Below are positions 10,253 to 18,163 of a DNA stretch of 64,000 nucleotides, in pieces. The stretch is taken from the NCBI GenBank assembly GCA_017411385.1, contig JAFQQF010000018.1, forward strand, positions 1 through 64,000, written 5' to 3'. How positions within the stretch are numbered: the first letter of the stretch is position 1; every line of letters begins with the position of its first letter. A model generated the notes under the pieces. The model was not told the DNA's origin. It saw only the letters and a program-made list of their open reading frames with translations, and did no database searches. This stretch comes from Ruminococcus sp. (GTDB lineage Bacteria; Bacillota; Clostridia; Oscillospirales; Acutalibacteraceae). Position numbers and translations under genes: made by a program.

Positions 10253-11356
10253 ATGTTTAACATAAACAAGAAGTTTGGTTTTGGCTGTATGCGTATGAAA
10301 ATGAATGGCAACGAAGTGGATTATGATGAGTTTATAAAGATGATAGATGCTTTTTTGGCAAACGGATTTAACTATTTTGATACTGCTCACGTGTATATTG
10401 ACGGCAAAAGCGAAACTGCCCTCAGAGATTGTCTGACCTCACGTTACCCAAGAGAAAGCTACATCTTAACAAACAAGCTCAGCCCCAGCAATTTTAATTC
10501 TCAAGAAGAAATCAGACCTTTGCTGGATTTACAGCTTAAAGCCTGCGGTGTAGAGTATTTTGATTTCTGGCTTATGCACGCAATGAACACAGAGCTTTTT
10601 GAAAAATACAAGAGATGCCGTGCTTTTGAAACAACCCTTGAACTCATAGAAGAAGGCAAGATAAAGCATCTGGGAATTTCTTTTCACGATAAAGCAGAGG
10701 TTCTCAGGCAGATTCTCACAGAGTATCCTCAGATAGAGGTTGTTCAGATACAGTTTAATTACGCAGACTTTGAGGACGAAAACATCGAAAGCAGAAAATG
10801 CTACGAGGTGTGCAGAGAATTCAATAAGCCTGTGATTGTAATGGAGCCTGTCAAGGGTGGCACCCTTGTGAATCTTCCAAAAGAAGCACAGGCAGTCTTT
10901 GATGCACTGGATGCAGGCAGTAATGCTAGCTACGCAATCCGATTTGCTGCAGGCTTTGAGGGTGTCATAATGGTGCTTTCAGGTATGGGCAGCGTTGAGA
11001 TGATGAACGACAACATAAGCTATATGAAGGATTTTGTACCCCTTAACGAAGATGAACAAAAGGCAGTCAGCAAGGTAACCGAGATACTGAAGTCCCAGAC
11101 ACAAATTCCTTGCACAGATTGTAAATACTGTGTTCCTGAGTGTCCTGCCGATATATCAATTCCAGAGATTTTTAGCCTGTATAACGGTAAAAAAACTCTC
11201 AAAGAGGGTTGTGCAAGGGAAGATTACAACCGAATATTCACAGATAGGGCAAAGGCATCCTCTTGTATTGAATGCGGAAATTGCGAGTCTGCCTGCCCAC
11301 AGCACCTGCCAATCAGAAGCCTGCTTAAAGAAGCGGTATCGGAATTTGAGGCATAA
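10253..11356 (+). CDS. Aldo/keto reductase with C-terminal ferredoxin-type domain
   Basis: N-terminal AKR barrel (about 1-270) with the catalytic Asp/Tyr in YFDTAHVY, Lys in TNKL and His in LMHAMN. The C-terminal part has two CxxCxxCxxxCP motifs, CTDCKYCVPECP and CIECGNCESACP, for two [4Fe-4S] clusters. This fusion is common in anaerobes and suggests electron transfer from ferredoxin-like donors. The substrate is unknown. SD AGGTG precedes the ATG. Confidence 0.92.
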   Translation: MFNINKKFGFGCMRMKMNGNEVDYDEFIKMIDAFLANGFNYFDTAHVYIDGKSETALRDCLTSRYPRESYILTNKLSPSNFNSQEEIRPLLDLQLKACGVEYFDFWLMHAMNTELFEKYKRCRAFETTLELIEEGKIKHLGISFHDKAEVLRQILTEYPQIEVVQIQFNYADFEDENIESRKCYEVCREFNKPVIVMEPVKGGTLVNLPKEAQAVFDALDAGSNASYAIRFAAGFEGVIMVLSGMGSVEMMNDNISYMKDFVPLNEDEQKAVSKVTEILKSQTQIPCTDCKYCVPECPADISIPEIFSLYNGKKTLKEGCAREDYNRIFTDRAKASSCIECGNCESACPQHLPIRSLLKEAVSEFEA

Positions 11357-11394
11357 TATTTGCATCTTCGTTTGAAGAATTATAATTTTAAGCT

Positions 11395-12276
11395 ATGAAG
11401 TTTTTGGAAAAGCATCCTATGATTATGATTGTCATAGGCATTTTAGGTATATCACTATCATCAATATTTGTAAAATTTTCCGATGCACCGTCGGTTGTTA
11501 CAGCAGCATTCAGGCTGATTTGGACAGTTCTGATAATGACTCCCTTTGTGCTTTTTAAGCCCGAGGCGAGAAAAGAGGTTTTTCATATACCGTGGAAGAC
11601 AGCGCTCCTGTGTGCACTCAGCGGAGTTTTTCTTGCCATACATTTTGTGTTGTGGTTTGAATCTCTCAGCCACACAACTGTTGCAAGCTCAACTACAATT
11701 GTGTGCACAGAGGTTATCTGGGTAGCTCTGGGGTATTGCTTGTTCTTAAAAGGCAGATTGTCGCTGAAAGCTATAGTAGCAATCGGGATTACCCTTTTAG
11801 GAAGTGTTTTGATTGCATATTCCGATTCTGCAAGCAGCACTCAGCTTTACGGTGATATTCTGGCATTGCTTGCCGCTGTTGCTGTTGGTGTTTATACCCT
11901 TATAGGAGCCGTTGTGCGTGCAAAGGCATCCACCACCGCCTATACATACCTTGTGTATATCTCTTGTATGTTGGTGCTTGTTATCACCTGCATTGTAAAA
12001 GGATATAATCTGTTTGGTTACGGTGTAAGTGCAGTTGTTGTAGGTTTATTACTTTCTTTGTTTTCTACAATAATGGGACACAGCGTTTTCAGTTGGTGCC
12101 TCAAATATTTCTCACCCTCCTTTGTATCGGCATCCAAATTGTGCGAGCCCGTGGTTTCGGCTGCCTTTGCTGCAATTATTTTTTCAGAATTTCCTCAGCT
12201 TTTGCAGATAATCGGTGCCGTTCTCATTATCGGGGGAGTGCTGTTATATTCTCGTATTGAGTCAAAATTAAGCTGA
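11395..12276 (+). CDS. DMT-superfamily (EamA) transporter
   Basis: 293 residues with about ten hydrophobic segments arranged as two EamA repeats (roughly 8-140 and 152-288), an inner-membrane exporter or metabolite carrier. It follows the aldo/keto reductase by 38 bp and may share its transcript. The substrate cannot be predicted. Its upstream ribosome site is weak. Confidence 0.88.
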   Translation: MKFLEKHPMIMIVIGILGISLSSIFVKFSDAPSVVTAAFRLIWTVLIMTPFVLFKPEARKEVFHIPWKTALLCALSGVFLAIHFVLWFESLSHTTVASSTTIVCTEVIWVALGYCLFLKGRLSLKAIVAIGITLLGSVLIAYSDSASSTQLYGDILALLAAVAVGVYTLIGAVVRAKASTTAYTYLVYISCMLVLVITCIVKGYNLFGYGVSAVVVGLLLSLFSTIMGHSVFSWCLKYFSPSFVSASKLCEPVVSAAFAAIIFSEFPQLLQIIGAVLIIGGVLLYSRIESKLS

Positions 12277-12372: not shown

Positions 12373-12516
12373 GTGAGAAACTCAAACTGTAGGTGTGTGC
12401 TTTGCTTTGCGGCAGGACTACTCGTGGCCAGCTGTTTGCCTTATGAATTTGTAGTAGTTATCTCGGCAATCACCATAATTATACTTTGCTGTATATTCAG
12501 GAGGCGAATCTGTTGA
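12373..12516 (+). CDS. 47-residue hydrophobic Cys-rich peptide upstream of spoVM
   Basis: Starts with GTG 12373 after GAGGTG at 12361-12366. The N-terminus has CRCVLCF, then two hydrophobic stretches (about 10-22 and 26-41) and a basic RRRIC end, so a small membrane protein is likely. I do not recognise the family. Its stop TGA overlaps the TTG start of spoVM, and GGAGGCG inside its last codons is the spoVM ribosome site. This tight coupling suggests a sporulation-linked function. Confidence 0.7.
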   Translation: MRNSNCRCVLCFAAGLLVASCLPYEFVVVISAITIIILCCIFRRRIC

Positions 12517-12593
12517 AAGTTGTACTTATCGAAAACCCCAAGTTCATATCCTTCTTCTTGCGTAAATTCTATAAAATCAAAAAGCAAAAGTAA
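12513..12593 (+). CDS. spoVM: Stage V sporulation protein M
   Basis: A 26-residue protein beginning MKVVLIENPKFISFFLRKF. It matches SpoVM in exact length, in the MK-x3-I-x2-PKF core and in the amphipathic helix with Arg near residue 17. SpoVM recognises forespore membrane curvature and anchors SpoIVA, starting coat and cortex assembly. Start TTG 12513 has AGGAGGCG upstream and overlaps the preceding stop by two bases. spoIVA and sipL are 2.5-4 kb downstream, which supports the call. It is too short for most automatic gene callers. Confidence 0.85.
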   Translation: MKVVLIENPKFISFFLRKFYKIKKQK

Positions 12594-12598
12594 GTCAC

Positions 12599-12665
12599 GG
12601 CTCCCTCTTTTGAGGGAGCCTCAAAAGCCCTCCTCCGTGAGGAGGGTGGCTGTGCATCAGCACAG
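12599..12665. repeat. Three adjacent hairpins (composite palindromic repeat)
   Basis: Consecutive perfect stem-loops: 12599-12620 (9-bp arms GGCTCCCTC), 12628-12646 (8-bp arms CCCTCCTC) and 12650-12665 (CTGTGC arms). The first may terminate spoVM transcription, but no good T-run follows. The look is that of a dispersed palindromic intergenic repeat. The gap 12594-12842 contains no credible gene. Confidence 0.6.
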
Positions 12666-12701
12666 ACGGAAGGATTGTCAGAGCTTCTTTCAATAAATGA
12701 T

Positions 12702-12719
12702 AGTGTATAGGGAAGGCAC
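12702..12719. repeat. 18-bp direct repeat, copy 1
   Basis: Begins AGTGTATAGGGAAGGCAC and matches 16 of 18 positions with 18234-18251 in the same orientation. The pair brackets the sas6-like, sipL and spoIVA genes. Confidence 0.5.
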
Positions 12720-12842
12720 ATTTACATCTCGAGTTTTCCCTCTGAGAGTCTGATTTTTTTGAACAAAAACTATCACCTACACACAATCGGACAAGCCTAT
12801 TGTCAAAAATTAACTTATTATTGCAGATTAACAAAATTTATC

Positions 12843-12871
12843 TTGAAAAAGCAAAAACTATCTGTTAAGAT
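12843..12871 (+). promoter_or_regulatory. Sigma-A promoter of the starch-binding protein gene
   Basis: TTGAAA (12843-12848), 17-bp spacer, TAAGAT (12866-12871) with TG extension at 12863-12864. This is a vegetative-type promoter, unlike the sigma-E-like site of sipL downstream. Confidence 0.7.
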
Positions 12872-12906
12872 AATTTTGAACCATTAATAATAGGAGGTTT
12901 TTTGAA

Positions 12907-14904
12907 ATGAAACGTACAAAGAAAATTCTTTCTCTGTTGCTTGCTCTCGTACTTCTTGTTGGTACAGTAGCAACACTCACTGTTTCTGCTGCAGGCGACA
13001 CAGTATACGTAAGGGTTCCCTCAAACTACGGCACACCTTATTGCTATATGTGGAACTCTTCTAATGACCAGAGTGCAAACTGGCCCGGCACACAGATGAC
13101 TTCTGAGGGTGACGGCGTGTATTCCTACACTCCTTCCAAGTCTTTCGCAAATGTTATTTTTAATGCTGGTTCAGATGCAAATAAAACTGCCGATCTTGTT
13201 TATCCCGGTGCAAACCAGCTTTATGACCTTGCATCTGGCAAATGGGAAGTATATGACCTTTCTTCAGCTGAGCCTTCTATCACAATCAGCAAGAAAGACG
13301 GCTCTTCCTTCAAAACAGAGTCCCTTACAGTAACCGTTACTGTTAAAAACGCTGATTCCGCTTACTACACAGTTGACGGCGGTGCTCAGCAGTCCTTTAC
13401 TGATTCTGCAGAGGTTACTCTCGGAGCTTCTACTGCAGTTGGTTCCACAGTTACTCTCTTTGTAAGTGCTACCAACGCAAACGGCACAGTAACTTCCACC
13501 GCTACATACACAAAGAAGGATGCTTCCTCCTCAGGTGGCAATGGCTCCGACGGAGCAACTTCTCCTGCTCTTGATGGCTACTACGGAACAAACCCTGACG
13601 GCAATGTTGGTAAAAGAGCAAACATTACTATTGACGGTAGTTTCAGCGATTGGTCTGAGGATATGCTTATTGCTCAGGGCGCAGCTTGGGATGTAGCCAA
13701 CCATTACAAGGGTGGTCACGAAAACTGCGTTCTTGATACTTATGCTTTGTTTGCTGCTTGGGATGATAACAATCTTTATGTAGCATGGCAGATGGTAAAC
13801 ACTACAGATACATGGCATAGAGAAGGAGACGGTTCACTCTCTGATGGTGGTCGTGTTCTTGATGTTCCTCTTATTCTTGCTCTCAGAGTTGATCCTTCAT
13901 CAACACCTATGTCTAATAAGAATTCAACAGGTGGTTCTATCTGGGGACAGCAGATGGGTCTCTCATTCCAGACTTCTGTTGACCATCTTTTCTATATGAG
14001 TGGTAAACCTGGTCTTGGTGACCCTGCAATGTTCACAGCGGTTGACGATAATGGTAATACCAACTATACAAATGGTTGTCAGCTCTTCAAGTCTGCAGGT
14101 ATCGAATATAAAATGGCTGAGGGTAATATCTGTAGTTCAATCTGGGGTCTAAATTACTCAGAAGACCCCTCTGATGTTACAAATCCCGATGCCGACTGGG
14201 TTGATTATAAGATTTTTAAAGGTTCTATGGGAACACACAACACAAAGTATGATTCCTTCTATGAAATCAAGATTCCTTTTAGCGTCCTTGATATTGATGC
14301 TTCCGATGTTGAGAGAAATGGTATTGGTGCGATGCTTGTAGCAACAAGAGGTGAGTCTGGTCTTGACTGTATTCCTTTCGATACAACAATGCTTGACAAT
14401 GTAACAGGTGATTATTACAACGATCCCAGTACATCTGCTGAAAAACATGATGATGATATTATTACAGTTCCTCTTGCAAAAATTGGTAATCTTAGCTCCG
14501 GTAGCGGTACTGTAACTCCTCCCACTCCTCCCACACCCACAAACCCCACTAACCCTTCAAATCCTACTAATCCTACTAATCCTACTAATCCTACTAACCC
14601 CACTAATCCTTCTAATCCCACTAAGCCTTCTGACCCTGTAGATGAGCCCACAACTCCCTCAAATCCTGCAGGCGACGCAAAGTACTTCTTAGGTGATGCA
14701 GACCTTAGCGGTAACGTAAACATTAAGGATGCAACCCTCATTCAGAAGTGTGTTGCAGGCCTTGATAGCATCACAGGCATTGCAGAAAAATGTGCAAATG
14801 CTGACCTTGATAATAAGCTTTCCGTTAAGGATGCAACAGAAATTCAGAAGTTCCTTGCAGGACTTCTCGATGTTGATTCACCTGTTGGCGAATATCTTAA
14901 ATAA
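12907..14904 (+). CDS. Secreted starch-binding dockerin protein, Sas6-like (CBM26-Ig-CBM74-dockerin)
   Basis: 665 residues. A signal peptide ends near residue 29 (VSA/AG). About 30-118 resembles CBM26 (YVRVPSN, YMWNSS, WPGTQM, FANVIFNAG). About 120-208 is an Ig-like beta module. About 220-535 matches, in my reading, the large CBM74 starch module (TIDGSFSDWSEDMLIAQGA, LYVAWQMVN). A TNP-repeat linker (about 540-585) leads to a type I dockerin (about 592-655) with two calcium-loop repeats and IKDATLIQK / VKDATEIQK. The order matches R. bromii Sas6, which binds granular starch in the amylosome. No catalytic domain is seen. AGGAGG precedes the ATG. Confidence 0.8.
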   Translation: MKRTKKILSLLLALVLLVGTVATLTVSAAGDTVYVRVPSNYGTPYCYMWNSSNDQSANWPGTQMTSEGDGVYSYTPSKSFANVIFNAGSDANKTADLVYPGANQLYDLASGKWEVYDLSSAEPSITISKKDGSSFKTESLTVTVTVKNADSAYYTVDGGAQQSFTDSAEVTLGASTAVGSTVTLFVSATNANGTVTSTATYTKKDASSSGGNGSDGATSPALDGYYGTNPDGNVGKRANITIDGSFSDWSEDMLIAQGAAWDVANHYKGGHENCVLDTYALFAAWDDNNLYVAWQMVNTTDTWHREGDGSLSDGGRVLDVPLILALRVDPSSTPMSNKNSTGGSIWGQQMGLSFQTSVDHLFYMSGKPGLGDPAMFTAVDDNGNTNYTNGCQLFKSAGIEYKMAEGNICSSIWGLNYSEDPSDVTNPDADWVDYKIFKGSMGTHNTKYDSFYEIKIPFSVLDIDASDVERNGIGAMLVATRGESGLDCIPFDTTMLDNVTGDYYNDPSTSAEKHDDDIITVPLAKIGNLSSGSGTVTPPTPPTPTNPTNPSNPTNPTNPTNPTNPTNPSNPTKPSDPVDEPTTPSNPAGDAKYFLGDADLSGNVNIKDATLIQKCVAGLDSITGIAEKCANADLDNKLSVKDATEIQKFLAGLLDVDSPVGEYLK

Positions 14905-14920
14905 CATTTAGCTTCAGACG

Positions 14921-14948
14921 GCTCCCTTTCTAAGGGAGCTGTTTTTTT
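14921..14948 (+). terminator. Terminator of the starch-binding protein gene
   Basis: Perfect 8-bp stem GCTCCCTT/AAGGGAGC with TCT loop and a seven-T run. Confidence 0.9.
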
Positions 14949-15048
14949 ATGTCTTGTTAATAGGGCGATGACTTGCGTCAGTAAAAAAATAGTGAATTCA
15001 TTCGTATCTGAGTAAGGCTTCAAATCCATAAGGTAAATGAAATAATAT

Positions 15049-15077
15049 GCATATTCTTCACTCTTTGCTAATACAAT
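15049..15077 (+). promoter_or_regulatory. Sigma-E-like promoter of sipL
   Basis: A -35-like GCATATT (15049-15055), 14-bp spacer and -10-like AATACAAT (15070-15077), one mismatch from the known sigma-E -10 CATACA(A/C/T)T. This fits mother-cell expression of a SpoIVA partner. Confidence 0.6.
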
Positions 15078-15105
15078 GAGATAGAACATAGAAGGAGAGA
15101 AAAAT

Positions 15106-16632
15106 ATGGACTACCTGCTAAAAAAAACTTTGGTTAGTACAGCTTCACAAATCCTCGATACGGTTTCTGAGCAGTGCGTGGATTTGGATTTTACCTTACC
15201 CGATTATTGTGCTGATATGGAAAAAATTCTCAAATGCTCTCTTGAGCCCAAAATTTTTACTCGTAGCTTTTCAGGCGGACAGCTCAGAGTTGACGGAGCT
15301 TCACTGGTGCGTATTATCTATTGTGATTCGGATAAGCTCAAAATAAGGTGTTGCGAGCAAACCCTGCCTTTCTCTGCAACATTCCCTGTCAGCGGTGATT
15401 CCTCAGAGCATATCATTCTGACTCAGACAAAGCCTGAATATTTAAACTGTAGGGCACTTACTCCCAGAAGACTCACGGTTCACGGTGCTTTTTCACTACA
15501 TGCTTCAATAATAGCTAAATCTGTCTGTGATGTTTTTGAGGATAAATCTGATGCTGCCCTGCAGATAAAAAGTGATACTAAGGAAATTTTTGAGCTTTGT
15601 GAGTTCTCTCAGGAAACCTTTAACGTGAGTGAAAGCATCGGCATTCACAGCAAATCGAATGTAGAAACTATTGTAAGAAGTGAGCTTTCTGCAAATATTA
15701 CCGATGCTTCGCTTAACGGTGAAAAGCTCAATATCCGAGGAGAAATGACTCTGAGGCTTCTGTATATCTGTGATGCCGCTACAGGTGATGTAGACAGATA
15801 TGTGTACGTCTTTCCTTTCACACAGTCGATATCAGCAGTTGACTCTGATTGCAAAATCCGTGATATCCGCCTTGATGTTTTGTCCTACGAGTTGCTTCTC
15901 AGAAAAGAAGTGATGACTGAAGAGCCTGTTGTTAATCTTGAAGCAAAGGTTTCCTTGTCCCTTATGGGCTACAAAAACCGCACTCTGTCTTATATCAGCG
16001 ATGCGTTTTCTGTTTCGGAAAATACGGAGCTTACATATAACACTCAAGCTCTATGCACGGCAGTTACTCCTGTCAGTGTCAGCACCGTAATAAAGCCTGT
16101 GCTTTCCTTGGGGGATAAACCCGTCAGCAAAATACTGGATATTTTCACCGAGCAACCCTCTGTAAACGCCTCTGTTTCAGAGAGTGTTATTAGCTTTACG
16201 GGCAAGGTTAATGTTTGTATCTTGGGCTGTACCGATGAGGGAGAGCTTGTGAGCATAGAGCGTCAGGCAGATATTGCATGCGAGGATGCCTTAACCGAAG
16301 CATATACACAAGCACAGATAAGCAATTGTTGTGTTTCTTCGCTGAGCTACCGCTTGGGCGAAAATAACAGCATTGAGCTTCGTTTGGATATGCATCTTAG
16401 TGCCATCGCTTCAAATCCCTATTTACTCAGACAGGTGGAAAGCATAACAGGCTGTGGCGAATCGGCAAAGCACTGTGTGAGTCCTCTAACTCTCTATTAC
16501 GCCCAAAGCGGTGAAAATGTCTGGGATATTGCAAAGCATTACGGTGCCTGTGTTAACACCCTTTGCGATGAAAACGCAATCACAGAAGAAACCCTTGACC
16601 GAAGCCGTATGCTTCTTATACTCAGAGCCTAG
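15106..16632 (+). CDS. sipL: SipL-type spore coat protein (DUF3794 repeats plus LysM)
   Basis: 508 residues. The body holds repeated DUF3794 (SPOCS) beta-rich modules. The C-terminus (about 462-508) is a LysM-like domain with YYAQSGENVWDIAKHYG. In Clostridioides difficile SipL binds the SpoIVA ATPase through its LysM domain and is needed for coat attachment. spoIVA follows 52 bp downstream and a sigma-E-like promoter lies upstream, so the role fits. AGAAGGAGAG is the ribosome site. Confidence 0.9.
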   Translation: MDYLLKKTLVSTASQILDTVSEQCVDLDFTLPDYCADMEKILKCSLEPKIFTRSFSGGQLRVDGASLVRIIYCDSDKLKIRCCEQTLPFSATFPVSGDSSEHIILTQTKPEYLNCRALTPRRLTVHGAFSLHASIIAKSVCDVFEDKSDAALQIKSDTKEIFELCEFSQETFNVSESIGIHSKSNVETIVRSELSANITDASLNGEKLNIRGEMTLRLLYICDAATGDVDRYVYVFPFTQSISAVDSDCKIRDIRLDVLSYELLLRKEVMTEEPVVNLEAKVSLSLMGYKNRTLSYISDAFSVSENTELTYNTQALCTAVTPVSVSTVIKPVLSLGDKPVSKILDIFTEQPSVNASVSESVISFTGKVNVCILGCTDEGELVSIERQADIACEDALTEAYTQAQISNCCVSSLSYRLGENNSIELRLDMHLSAIASNPYLLRQVESITGCGESAKHCVSPLTLYYAQSGENVWDIAKHYGACVNTLCDENAITEETLDRSRMLLILRA

Positions 16633-16684
16633 CTTTTATATGCACAAAATATTCGATTAATACAGAATCAGGTGGAGGCACAAA

Positions 16685-18163
16685 GTGGAACAGAGAAATA
16701 TTTATCAGGATATTGCCACTCGTTGCGGTGGAGATATATACATCGGAGTAGTAGGTCCTGTGCGAACAGGAAAATCTACCTTTACAAAGAGGTTTATGGA
16801 TACCCTTGTAATTCCGAATATTGACGATGAGTTCAGGGCTCAGCGTGCAAACGATGAACTGCCCCAGTCAGCAGGTGGCAGAACAATAATGACCACGGAG
16901 CCTAAGTTTATTCCCGAGGATGCAGTACAGATTACTCTTGAGGGCAACGCAACCCTGTCAGTCAGAATGATTGACTGTGTAGGCTACATAGTCAGAGGTG
17001 CCTTGGGCTACATCGAAGAAGATGCTCCCAGAATGGTCAAAACTCCGTGGTTTGATACAGAGATTCCTTTTGATAAAGCGGCTGAGTTTGGCACGCGAAA
17101 GGTAATCACAGACCACTCAACCATAGGACTTGTTGTTACAACAGACGGCTCGATAAGCGACATCCCCAGAGAGGAGTATATCGAGGCAGAGGAAAGAGTT
17201 GTTAACGAGCTCAAAGAAATCAACAAACCCTTTGTGGTGCTTCTCAATTGCTTTGAACCCGAAAGTCAGGAGAGCCAGTCCCTTGCATCAAGCCTTGCCG
17301 CCAAATATGCGGTGCCCGTAATCCCCATATCCTGTCTTGAGCTTGACGAAATTCAGATTAAAAGGATTCTTGCACAGATACTCTTTGAGTTTCCCTTAAA
17401 GGAAATCTCTGTCAATATTCCATCGTGGATTGTTGCACTTCCCAAGGAGCACTGGCTGAAATCCAGCATTTTTTCTGCGATTACCCAATGTGCCGGTAAG
17501 GCAGAAAAGCTCAGAGAGGTTCAGCAGGTTGCAGAGAGCTTGTGTATGAACGAATACATCACAGCTTCACAGCTTACTTCCCTTGACCTTTCCTGCGGTA
17601 GAGCAGAGCTAAGCCTGATGGTGGCATCAGAGCTTTTCTTCAGGGTGCTTTCAGAGCAGACAGGGCTTGATATACCCGATGAAAAAGCCTTGCTTGCAAG
17701 CTTTTCGGAGCTTAATTCAAAGAAGAGTGAGTATGAGCGTATCGCAAAAGCTTATGAAGAGGTGCTGGAAAACGGCTACGGAATCGTAATGCCTACAATG
17801 GAGGAGTTGCACCTTGAAGAACCTCAGATTGTGAAGCAGAGCGGAAAATACGGGGTCAAGCTCAAAGCATCTGCTCCCTCTGTTCATATGATGAAAATTG
17901 AAACCTGTGCGGAGGTTACACCCTTGGTAGGCTCGGAGCAACAGTCAGAAGACTTGGTAAAATACCTGCTTCGCGAATTTGAGGAAGACCCTGTGAAAAT
18001 CTGGCAGTCGGATATTTTTGGCAAGTCTGTCAATGAGCTTGTAAACGAAGGCTTGCAAAATAAACTCTACCGTATGCCTCAGGATGCCAGAATGAAGCTC
18101 ACGGAAACTGTTGAAAAGATTATAAACGAAGGCTGCAACGGACTCATCTGCATAATTCTTTAA
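16685..18163 (+). CDS. spoIVA: Stage IV sporulation protein A (coat morphogenetic ATPase)
   Basis: 492 residues, the standard length. Walker A GPVRTGKS is at 24-31 in a TRAFAC-type NTPase domain, and the conserved C-terminal segment that meets SpoVM ends in GCNGLICIIL. SpoIVA polymerises with ATP hydrolysis around the forespore as the basement layer of the coat. GTG start with AGGTGGAGG upstream. It can be co-transcribed with sipL; a weak ATAT..AATACAGA pair (16638-16666) could be its own sigma-E site. Confidence 0.97.
   Translation: MEQRNIYQDIATRCGGDIYIGVVGPVRTGKSTFTKRFMDTLVIPNIDDEFRAQRANDELPQSAGGRTIMTTEPKFIPEDAVQITLEGNATLSVRMIDCVGYIVRGALGYIEEDAPRMVKTPWFDTEIPFDKAAEFGTRKVITDHSTIGLVVTTDGSISDIPREEYIEAEERVVNELKEINKPFVVLLNCFEPESQESQSLASSLAAKYAVPVIPISCLELDEIQIKRILAQILFEFPLKEISVNIPSWIVALPKEHWLKSSIFSAITQCAGKAEKLREVQQVAESLCMNEYITASQLTSLDLSCGRAELSLMVASELFFRVLSEQTGLDIPDEKALLASFSELNSKKSEYERIAKAYEEVLENGYGIVMPTMEELHLEEPQIVKQSGKYGVKLKASAPSVHMMKIETCAEVTPLVGSEQQSEDLVKYLLREFEEDPVKIWQSDIFGKSVNELVNEGLQNKLYRMPQDARMKLTETVEKIINEGCNGLICIIL

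Follow-up and report, generated by a model that had tools for sequence, protein, structure and literature searches.

Bacteria of the genus that hosts the DNA studied here are known for the breakdown of resistant starch, and the host itself, a relative of Ruminococcus bromii, lives in the gut. Exchange of whole binding modules between relatives of one gene is a feature of cellulosome and amylosome proteins. The closest described counterpart of the gene considered below is Sas6 of R. bromii (PDB 7uwu, 7uww), a protein also named Doc6. Excerpts of one published study give Doc6 as signal peptide-DUF-dockerin and describe amylosome dockerin proteins of R. bromii, for example Sas20, as starch-binding and dockerin-tethered (PMC9112005), and excerpts of a second study give R. 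bromii Amy16, Amy10 and Amy12 as dockerin-carrying enzymes (PMC5814915). The excerpts consulted from the CC-licensed literature on CBM74, Sas6, the R. bromii amylosome, dockerins and sporulation do not report the arrangement described here, in which a gene for a starch-binding protein lies between spore-coat genes.

The window, a 64,000-nucleotide stretch of Ruminococcus sp. DNA, belongs to an assembly of 62 contigs with 2.29% contamination. The original prediction placed a starch-binding gene inside its spoVM-sipL-spoIVA cluster, and profile searches bore this out: spoVM, a CBM26-Ig-CBM74-dockerin gene (the cargo gene), sipL and spoIVA follow one another on a single strand (Table 1), and the SpoVM, SipL and SpoIVA assignments all reach the cut-offs of curated families. 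The C-terminal LysM match of sipL scores under the LysM cut-off. The DNA of the 47-aa ORF before spoVM is kept within the window's clade (alignment of six clade members), and a profile search with this ORF gave zero NCBIfam matches.

Table 1. Features of the spoVM-spoIVA region, in window coordinates
Feature	Position	Strand	Evidence or description
47-aa hydrophobic ORF, GTG start	12373..12516	+	translation; stop overlaps spoVM start
spoVM, 26 aa, TTG start	12513..12593	+	SpoVM_broad NF033436, 39.6 bits (cut-off 31)
Sigma-A-like promoter of cargo gene, TTGAAA-N17-TAAGAT, TG ahead of -10	12843..12871	+	sequence scan
Cargo gene, 665 aa	12907..14904	+	signal peptide (by eye), CBM26, Ig-like, CBM74, PT linker, dockerin
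CBM26 module, residues 33-97	13003..13197	+	PF16738, 1.9e-17, 63.6 bits
CBM74 module, type I, about residues 218-531	13558..14499	+	match to solved CBM74
Type-I dockerin-like module, residues 596-650	14692..14856	+	PF00404, 15.8 bits (21.6 in genome scan), cut-off 22.9
Intrinsic terminator after cargo gene	14916..14944	+	-18.1 kcal/mol
Sigma-E-like promoter of sipL, GCATATT-N14-AATACAAT	15049..15077	+	14/15 positions, near-consensus
sipL	15106..16632	+	SPOCS domain PF12673, 77.8 bits, 7.5e-22
spoIVA	16685..18163	+	TIGR02836, 706.8 bits

The predicted modules of the cargo protein were also recovered. Behind an N-terminus that is signal-peptide-like as judged by eye, residues 38–530 match solved Sas6 (7uwu, 1.7e-64) and residues 131–530 match the CBM74 construct 7uwv (1.3e-59, phmmer), homology spanning the whole CBM74 module; residues 29–105 are 70–84% identical to relatives in G088, G111, G077, G065, G020 and G071. 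The C-terminal dockerin lies under the Pfam cut-off, but residues 591–665 alone match R. bromii Amy16 (1.6e-7), Amy10 (1.2e-4) and Amy12 (7e-4), as well as two chains named cellulosomal adaptor/dockerin (0.0076, 0.0099). When ten slot or spoVM-flanking proteins were scanned, the Dockerin_1 cut-off was passed by L128, L149, L103, L169, L119 and L117; L120 scored below it (21.7) and three had no listed match. The window's genome has 52 dockerin matches, together with 3 cohesin matches that all fall on one contig. With W373 and F326 taken as ligand-contacting residues of Sas6, Trp occupies the expected place of W373 in 26 of 26 CBM74 rows aligned and read by eye; in the same alignment, the four type I rows, the window's included, have no aromatic residue where F326 would be and do not have the motif ANDDPRVY, which is present in the others. 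We infer that the cargo gene encodes a secreted starch-adherence protein, which would grip starch with CBM26 and CBM74 and dock into the amylosome through the dockerin-like module.

Comparison of the locus across related genomes, as the original prediction had proposed, showed that the arrangement is genus-wide and not confined to this genome. A CBM74 gene lies between spoVM and sipL in 36 of the 44 genus stretches that contain both genes (35 of 43 fetched, plus the window); two of the remaining slots hold another dockerin gene and six are empty. The interval between spoVM and sipL exceeds 1 kb in 38/44 cases, compared with 5/43 for rluD-spoVM and 8/93 for sipL-spoIVA. No recognisable relative of the cargo was found between spoVM and sipL at 40 loci from other genera, in 10 of which spoVM is at most 400 nt from sipL. 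The contrast between 36/44 and 0/40 suggests that the cargo gene probably entered the interval early in the history of the genus and has been inherited in place since. Chance insertion, one of the two explanations first offered, is rejected by the survey as an event in this genome alone, and as a recent event it is disfavoured because a SpoIVA+SipL tree of the genus has the arrangement in three of its four deep clades.

Within this frame, the CBM74 segment has a history of its own. Compared to the G088 gene, the window's cargo is 80% identical in CBM26, 88% in Ig and 65% in the dockerin, whereas five CBM74 blocks are only 24–56% identical; across CBM74 it is 72–86% identical to the gene of the distant G038. 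The window's CBM26+Ig part groups with sister species. The CBM26+Ig parts of seven slot genes form a clade (support 99), while holding the CBM74 modules of those seven together is rejected (p-AU 2.2e-33), the groups in both tests having been chosen once the trees had been inspected. On the tree of 47 genomes the CBM74 type has changed at least 13 times. The window's type I CBM74 differs from the type in 6 of 7 other grouped slot genes, and G026, of the same clade, shares type I and has the CBM74 closest to it (support 96). The swapped segment begins and ends within the cargo gene, flanked on either side by sister-like sequence. On these alignments and trees, the CBM74 module is swapped inside the cargo gene, whose N-terminal CBM26-Ig part followed the species.

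Two other origins for the mosaic gene and its position may be weighed here. The contig number and contamination of the assembly would be in keeping with an artefact in the window's contig, which, like recent chance insertion, we regard as very improbable: the same order recurs in 36/44 stretches from separate genomes, contradicting the placement part of this explanation, the foreign CBM74 segment has sister-like sequence to its left and right, and a second member of the clade carries its nearest relative. A tentative possibility, to which we give some weight, is that the spoVM-sipL interval serves as an exchange site, where conserved spore flanks let foreign amylosome genes recombine in and the cargo is replaced more often than elsewhere. 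Slot contents do vary between fixed flanks, with CBM74 proteins ranging from 456 to 1089 aa, additional dockerin ORFs, a Fic protein and a pair of ABC ATPase and permease, and the CBM74 type changed 12–13 times on the slot (47 genomes) versus once off it (18 genomes). However, both ends of the window's swap are inside the cargo and not in the spore genes, and the difference in exchange rate, 12 changes over 11.9 units on the slot versus 1 over 4.2 off it, comes from a small sample in which the off-slot rate is not clearly lower.

Promoter scans used general consensus patterns for the sigma factors; a sigma-A-like site was defined by a score of at least 10 and a sigma-E-like site by at least 13 of 15 positions, hits were compared with shuffled sequences, and the sporulation-sigma scans covered 200 nt upstream of the cargo gene. 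The sigma-A-like promoter and terminator predicted for the cargo, and the sigma-E-like promoter predicted for sipL, are present in the window. Sigma-A-like promoters were found upstream of 28/36 cargo genes (window included) versus 12% of shuffled sequences, and upstream of sipL and spoVM in 8/94 and 4/44 cases, respectively; the cargo promoter region aligns in six clade loci. Sigma-E-like sites precede sipL in 41/94 loci versus 0.6% of shuffled sequences and the cargo gene in 0/36. This last miss is weak evidence, since the same scan gives 0/44 for spoVM, itself a sporulation gene, at which a sigma-K-like pattern is enriched (16/44 versus 12.5% shuffled). With the same reservation, a sporulation-sigma promoter for the cargo is disfavoured: over the 36 loci, sigma-E, F, G, H and K-like sites show no clear excess within those 200 nt, the largest count being 2/36 for sigma F versus 2.8% in shuffled sequence. 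Terminator-like hairpins lie between cargo and sipL in 29/36 loci and between spoVM and cargo in 26/36 (counts with no shuffled control), none being found in the latter interval in 10/36; the window has no T-tract terminator there. We infer that the cargo gene is transcribed from its own sigma-A-type promoter to its own terminator and that sipL keeps its own sigma-E-type promoter. Such separate promoters would place two programmes side by side on one strand.

Of 161 genomes, 30 contain a GATGTGCA...TGCACATC hairpin, each at a single place, and in all 24 examined loci that contain it a spoVM-like start lies at most 400 nt upstream. It was considered as an operator or regulon site of the cargo and rejected, because it goes with spoVM whatever follows, being present both in L279, where sipL comes next, and in L207, where another cargo does. 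It is missing from six empty slots (L102, L107, L114, L131, L132 and L158). Rfam searches of the window and of six loci gave no match. The hairpin is most likely the terminator of spoVM. The hairpin-rich stretch near 12595–12680 was also considered as a dispersed repeat; neither a pattern scan nor a repeat search found another copy in the window.

The original prediction also raised the idea that spore coat and starch binding are connected. Since no T-tract terminator precedes the cargo in the window, read-through from spoVM in the mother cell is conceivable, and the cargo might also be made during sporulation in this way, or from an unrecognised site of the kind that the sigma-E scan evidently overlooks at spoVM. 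Sporulating cells or spores would then stay attached to starch granules. Retention of the gene in this slot across three deep clades is in line with such a role and could reflect selection on linkage, as is a Sas6-type CBM74 gene directly before spoVM in 5 genomes (5 of 81 CBM74 rows examined). We nevertheless consider it unlikely, given the sigma-A-like sites, the lack of a clear sporulation-sigma excess and the hairpins after spoVM in most loci. In one 25-genome clade, moreover, the gene lies away from both spoVM and sipL in the 18 genomes examined, six of the 44 slots are empty, and what Ruminococcus sp. FMBCY1 still has of the gene is a broken remnant. Four genes downstream, for which we know of no spore role, likewise keep their order in 14/16 loci, so a shared function cannot be read from conserved gene order by itself. 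An extended version, in which the gene is kept beside spoVM for sporulation expression by read-through and the swapped CBM74 tunes which starch is held, is also improbable in our judgement. A spore role of the cargo thus appears unsupported by the loci compared.

We favour, with a probability of about 0.72, the reading that the cargo is an early-gained amylosome starch-adherence gene under its own control, with a swapped CBM74. The place of the gene, its conservation, the module exchange and the promoter-like sites are seen in the sequence; starch binding, docking, promoter use and the absence of a spore role are predictions. Because it has apparent switches of its own and its main starch-binding module has been swapped, the cargo would be a stable neighbour of the spore genes and not a spore protein. 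A starch-adherence gene kept between spore-coat genes through deep splits of a resistant-starch-degrading genus makes an odd neighbourhood open to comparison and test, and at this place the starch-binding module itself has been exchanged between species. The genus thereby offers a ready-made set of proteins in which one frame carries various CBM74 modules, and with which the part that sets starch preference could be sought. It also cautions that adjacency to spore genes is no evidence of a spore role.

The cargo was originally read as having the module order of Sas6. This holds for CBM26-Ig-CBM74, which both proteins have in common, but beyond CBM74 they differ: Sas6 continues with another region, which we read as a second Ig, and the cargo with a PT-rich linker. 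Orthology with Sas6 was rejected: the cargo shares 36% identity with the Sas6 relative of G067 (1093 bits to 7uwu), that genome carries both this relative and a slot gene at separate loci, and the cargo CBM74 falls on a different branch from that of Sas6. By these comparisons the cargo is a Sas6-like paralogue. With Sas20-type amylosome proteins it would share, as predicted from its modules, dockerin tethering and starch binding; those proteins have other binding modules, whereas the cargo gene adjoins spoVM. Compared to the module shuffling known from cellulosome and amylosome proteins, the exchange seen here takes place at a fixed chromosomal position between spore genes.

The original prediction placed a starch-binding amylosome gene within a spoVM–sipL–spoIVA spore cluster, and family matches for SpoVM, SipL and SpoIVA, with a 665-aa ORF in the spoVM–sipL interval (the slot), bear out this order. 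The slot protein begins, by eye, with a Sec-type signal peptide and contains a CBM26 module (63.6 bits). Residues 38–530 match Sas6, the solved starch-binding protein of R. bromii (PDB 7uwu), at 1.7e-64, and residues 131–530 match the CBM74 construct 7uwv at 1.3e-59. C-terminal to CBM74 lie a PT-rich linker and a dockerin, which scores 15.8 and 21.6 bits, below the curated Pfam cut-off of 22.9. Residues 591–665 alone match R. bromii Amy16 (1.6e-7), Amy10 (1.2e-4) and Amy12 (7e-4), dockerin-bearing enzymes according to PMC5814915. Since the window's genome has 52 dockerin and 3 cohesin matches, an amylosome-type system is plausible there. By homology, the protein would be secreted, its dockerin would dock into an amylosome cohesin and its CBM26 and CBM74 would hold starch.

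Features of the window locus and of compared loci (G-numbers, genus genomes searched; L-numbers, fetched loci)
Feature	Position	Description
aldo/keto reductase and EamA transporter genes	window 10253-12276	separate rluD-like gene from spoVM
47-aa hydrophobic ORF	window 12373-12516	stop codon overlaps spoVM start
spoVM	window 12513-12593	26 aa, TTG start; NCBI SpoVM family 39.6 bits, cut-off 31
CBM74 gene (slot gene)	window 12907-14904 (+)	
sipL	after CBM74 gene	PF12673, 77.8 bits
spoIVA	after sipL	TIGR02836, 706.8 bits
four downstream genes		oxaloacetate-decarboxylase-like, chain-length-like, kinase-like, aminotransferase-like
slot-gene remnant, Ruminococcus sp. FMBCY1	L015:7022-8329	signal-peptide frame ends after 19 codons; CBM26, Ig and most of CBM74 absent
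genes after spoVM, G074	L207:3585-7663	spoVM, then CBM26-dockerin and alpha-amylase-like genes
pyridoxamine kinase gene, G016	L115:1956-2846	between sipL and spoIVA
Fic adenylyltransferase, G067	L164:8250-8852	between CBM74 gene and sipL
ABC ATPase and permease pair, G058	L155:8509-10058	metal-transporter-like; between CBM74 gene and sipL

The DNA of the 47-aa ORF is conserved across six clade loci and is preceded by a CATAGTAT-like sequence; the ORF has no match in NCBIfam and is a possible unannotated partner of spoVM. The rluD-like gene lies <1 kb from spoVM in 38/43 loci, and a large Sas6-type CBM74 gene occupies the place of the window's reductase and transporter genes in five genomes. 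In G074 the CBM74 gene remains with sipL on another contig. ORFs of 278–319 aa also separate sipL from spoIVA in G011, G025, G041, G047, G055 and G099, that of G047 having, by eye, a different beginning.

To place the locus in the genus, 100 genomes (the window's own and 99 others) were searched with the slot protein, SipL and SpoVM. SipL was found in 95 and SpoVM, at E 0.01, in 91. The other 94 sipL stretches were fetched, and 43 hold spoVM and sipL together. A CBM74 gene lies in the slot in 35 of these 43 stretches (36/44 counting the window); two hold a different dockerin gene (G003 with three ORFs, G072 with one of 256 aa) and six are empty, with gaps of 113–279 nt. Outside this count are 51 stretches: 24 with the sipL start <6 kb from the stretch end (CBM74 in the piece in 9) and 27 without spoVM upstream (CBM74 adjoining sipL in one). 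A 104-row tree built on SpoIVA+SipL, in which linkage was assigned by hand from search results, shows the linked state in three of four deep clades of the genus; the fourth, of 25 genomes, has zero linked rows. For 18 of these 25 the CBM74 gene was fetched, two stretches being merely 3 and 6 kb; none of the 18 stretches carries spoVM. The CBM74 gene is on a different contig from sipL in all 18 genomes and from spoVM in 17, spoVM being ~40 kb off in G042. Other genera of the family were sampled as 40 loci, mostly best-scoring and one per genus, from 104 SipL-matching genomes: spoVM is upstream of sipL in 13 (≤400 nt in 10), and no CBM74, CBM26 or similar dockerin was found between them in the 40 loci at the tblastn threshold used. 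The arrangement is confirmed and extends beyond the window to the genus. The simplest history starts with spoVM–sipL adjacency; the genus would then have gained the CBM74 gene early and passed it on, apart from several losses and one relocation affecting a whole clade.

A scan of the 200 nt upstream of each gene (score ≥10, shuffled control) showed a sigma-A-like site before the CBM74 gene in 28/36 loci versus 12% in shuffles, before sipL in 8/94 and before spoVM in 4/44. With the sigma-E consensus that we assumed, sites precede sipL in 41/94 loci (0.6% in shuffles) and spoIVA in 9/93; the predicted sigma-E-like promoter of the window's sipL is present as GCATATT-N14-AATACAAT, 28 nt ahead of the start. 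Upstream of the 36 CBM74 genes, the scans gave no sigma-E-like site and no clear excess of sigma F, G, H or K sites (sigma F, 2/36 versus 2.8%). T-tract hairpins, counted without a shuffled control, lie between the CBM74 gene and sipL in 29/36 loci and between spoVM and the CBM74 gene in 26/36. Control of the CBM74 gene thus looks separate from that of sipL: these patterns suggest transcription from its own vegetative-type promoter, ending ahead of sipL, whose putative mother-cell promoter would sit just before its start.

Alternatively, but less probably, linkage to spoVM may have been selected, with the CBM74 gene possibly expressed in the mother cell through spoVM read-through. The sigma-E scan also missed spoVM, a sporulation gene (0/44), so that its miss at the CBM74 gene carries little weight. 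Since no T-tract hairpin was found between spoVM and the CBM74 gene in the window, where the hairpin directly 3' of spoVM (GGCTCCCTC-TTTT-GAGGGAGCC) is without a T tail, such read-through is possible. Moreover, a Sas6-type gene lies directly upstream of spoVM in 5/81 CBM74 rows (G009, G020, G070, G088, G098), and in the same genomes a second CBM74 gene follows spoVM (in G070 on the next piece). Against this reading, the sigma-A-like sites predominate, and the four downstream genes, for which we know of no spore role, are also syntenic, standing in order in 14/16 named loci with spoVM and sipL, several sharing genomes with the main survey (L010 lacks all four; the L014 stretch stops after the second). 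Furthermore, the gene is dispensable at the slot, given the six empty slots, the relocation in one clade and the remnant in the complete FMBCY1 genome. Since synteny is general, control looks separate and the gene is dispensable, we conclude that lying beside spore genes does not argue for a role in spores; the proposed functional link between spore coat and starch is not supported by these comparisons and keeps a low probability.

We take Sas6 to be the protein named Doc6. Doc6 (734 aa) is among the EDTA-released proteins of early stationary phase R. bromii cells (PMC9112005), CBM74 genes become more abundant with recalcitrant starches in a fermentation model (PMC9458734), and in pigs fed raw potato starch CBM74 transcripts, tied by the authors to Faecalibacterium, were up and CBM26 transcripts lowered (PMC8254964). 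For proteins of this kind, the published evidence thus points towards starch and vegetative cells. PMC5814915 documents sporulation in R. bromii, and its main text contains neither the word spoIVA nor the word spoVM.

A sigma-K-like pattern is in excess before spoVM, in 16/44 loci versus 12.5% in shuffles; the spoVM promoter may precede the overlapping 47-aa ORF or be of another type. A conserved-core hairpin, GATGTGCA...TGCACATC, with a T tract lies 3' of spoVM in L128, L133, L166, L279 and other loci. Of 161 genus genomes, 30 have this hairpin, each at a single place. A spoVM-like start lies ≤400 nt upstream of it in 24/24 compared loci that contain it (131–159 nt in four), and it is present both without a slot gene (L279) and with another (L207). 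It is probably a spoVM terminator, with an unusually conserved core.

Compared with its near relative G088, the window protein is 80% identical in CBM26, 88% in Ig and 65% in the dockerin, and 56, 36, 28, 24 and 53% in five CBM74 blocks. Against the distant G038 protein, which is without CBM26 and Ig, the same blocks give 75, 86, 78, 81 and 72% and the dockerin 24%. Among 28 proteins, the CBM26+Ig parts of seven slot genes from the window's group cluster as a single clade (support 99), while constraining the CBM74 modules of these genes to do the same lowers the log-likelihood by 294 units (p-AU 2.2e-33). A similar test over all 81 CBM74 rows, in which G026 joined the group, gave p-AU 3e-56. 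The groups were defined after inspection of the trees, and one member, G111, is off the species tree. These tests indicate that the CBM74 module was exchanged inside an inherited neighbourhood. A chimeric contig could produce such a mosaic but is unlikely, because sister-like sequence flanks the foreign segment on either side and G026, of the same clade, has the nearest relative of the window CBM74 (support 96). With the CBM74 branches named I, IIa, IIb, IIb2 and IIc, at least 13 type changes fall on the slot over 47 genomes (12 with IIb and IIb2 joined), 4 of them among seven typed genomes of the window's clade, versus one off the slot over 18; with 11.9 units of branch length covered on the slot and 4.2 off it, a higher rate on the slot is only suggestive. 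The flanking spore genes might have helped the exchange; in the window, both ends of the swapped segment fall inside the gene. By eye in 26 rows, type I, that of the window, is without the ANDDPRVY motif seen in the other types and in Sas6 relatives. An aromatic residue is also missing from its F326 place, whereas Trp is retained at the W373 place (both presumably Sas6 ligand residues); the exchange may therefore have altered the mode of starch holding.

The predicted Sas6 module order holds for CBM26–Ig–CBM74 but not C-terminal to CBM74, where the solved Sas6 chain has ~90 further residues, interpreted as a second Ig, and the window protein has its linker. The single-contig genome G067 carries a slot gene whose product shares 58% identity with the window protein. 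A second gene, 0.69 Mb off in the numbering of that genome, has 36% identity to the window protein and matches 7uwu at 1093 bits. This separate carriage rules out the window gene as Sas6 itself and, on sequence grounds, identifies it as a Sas6-like paralogue. The new elements are a position that stays fixed across the genus and the exchange of a module at that position.
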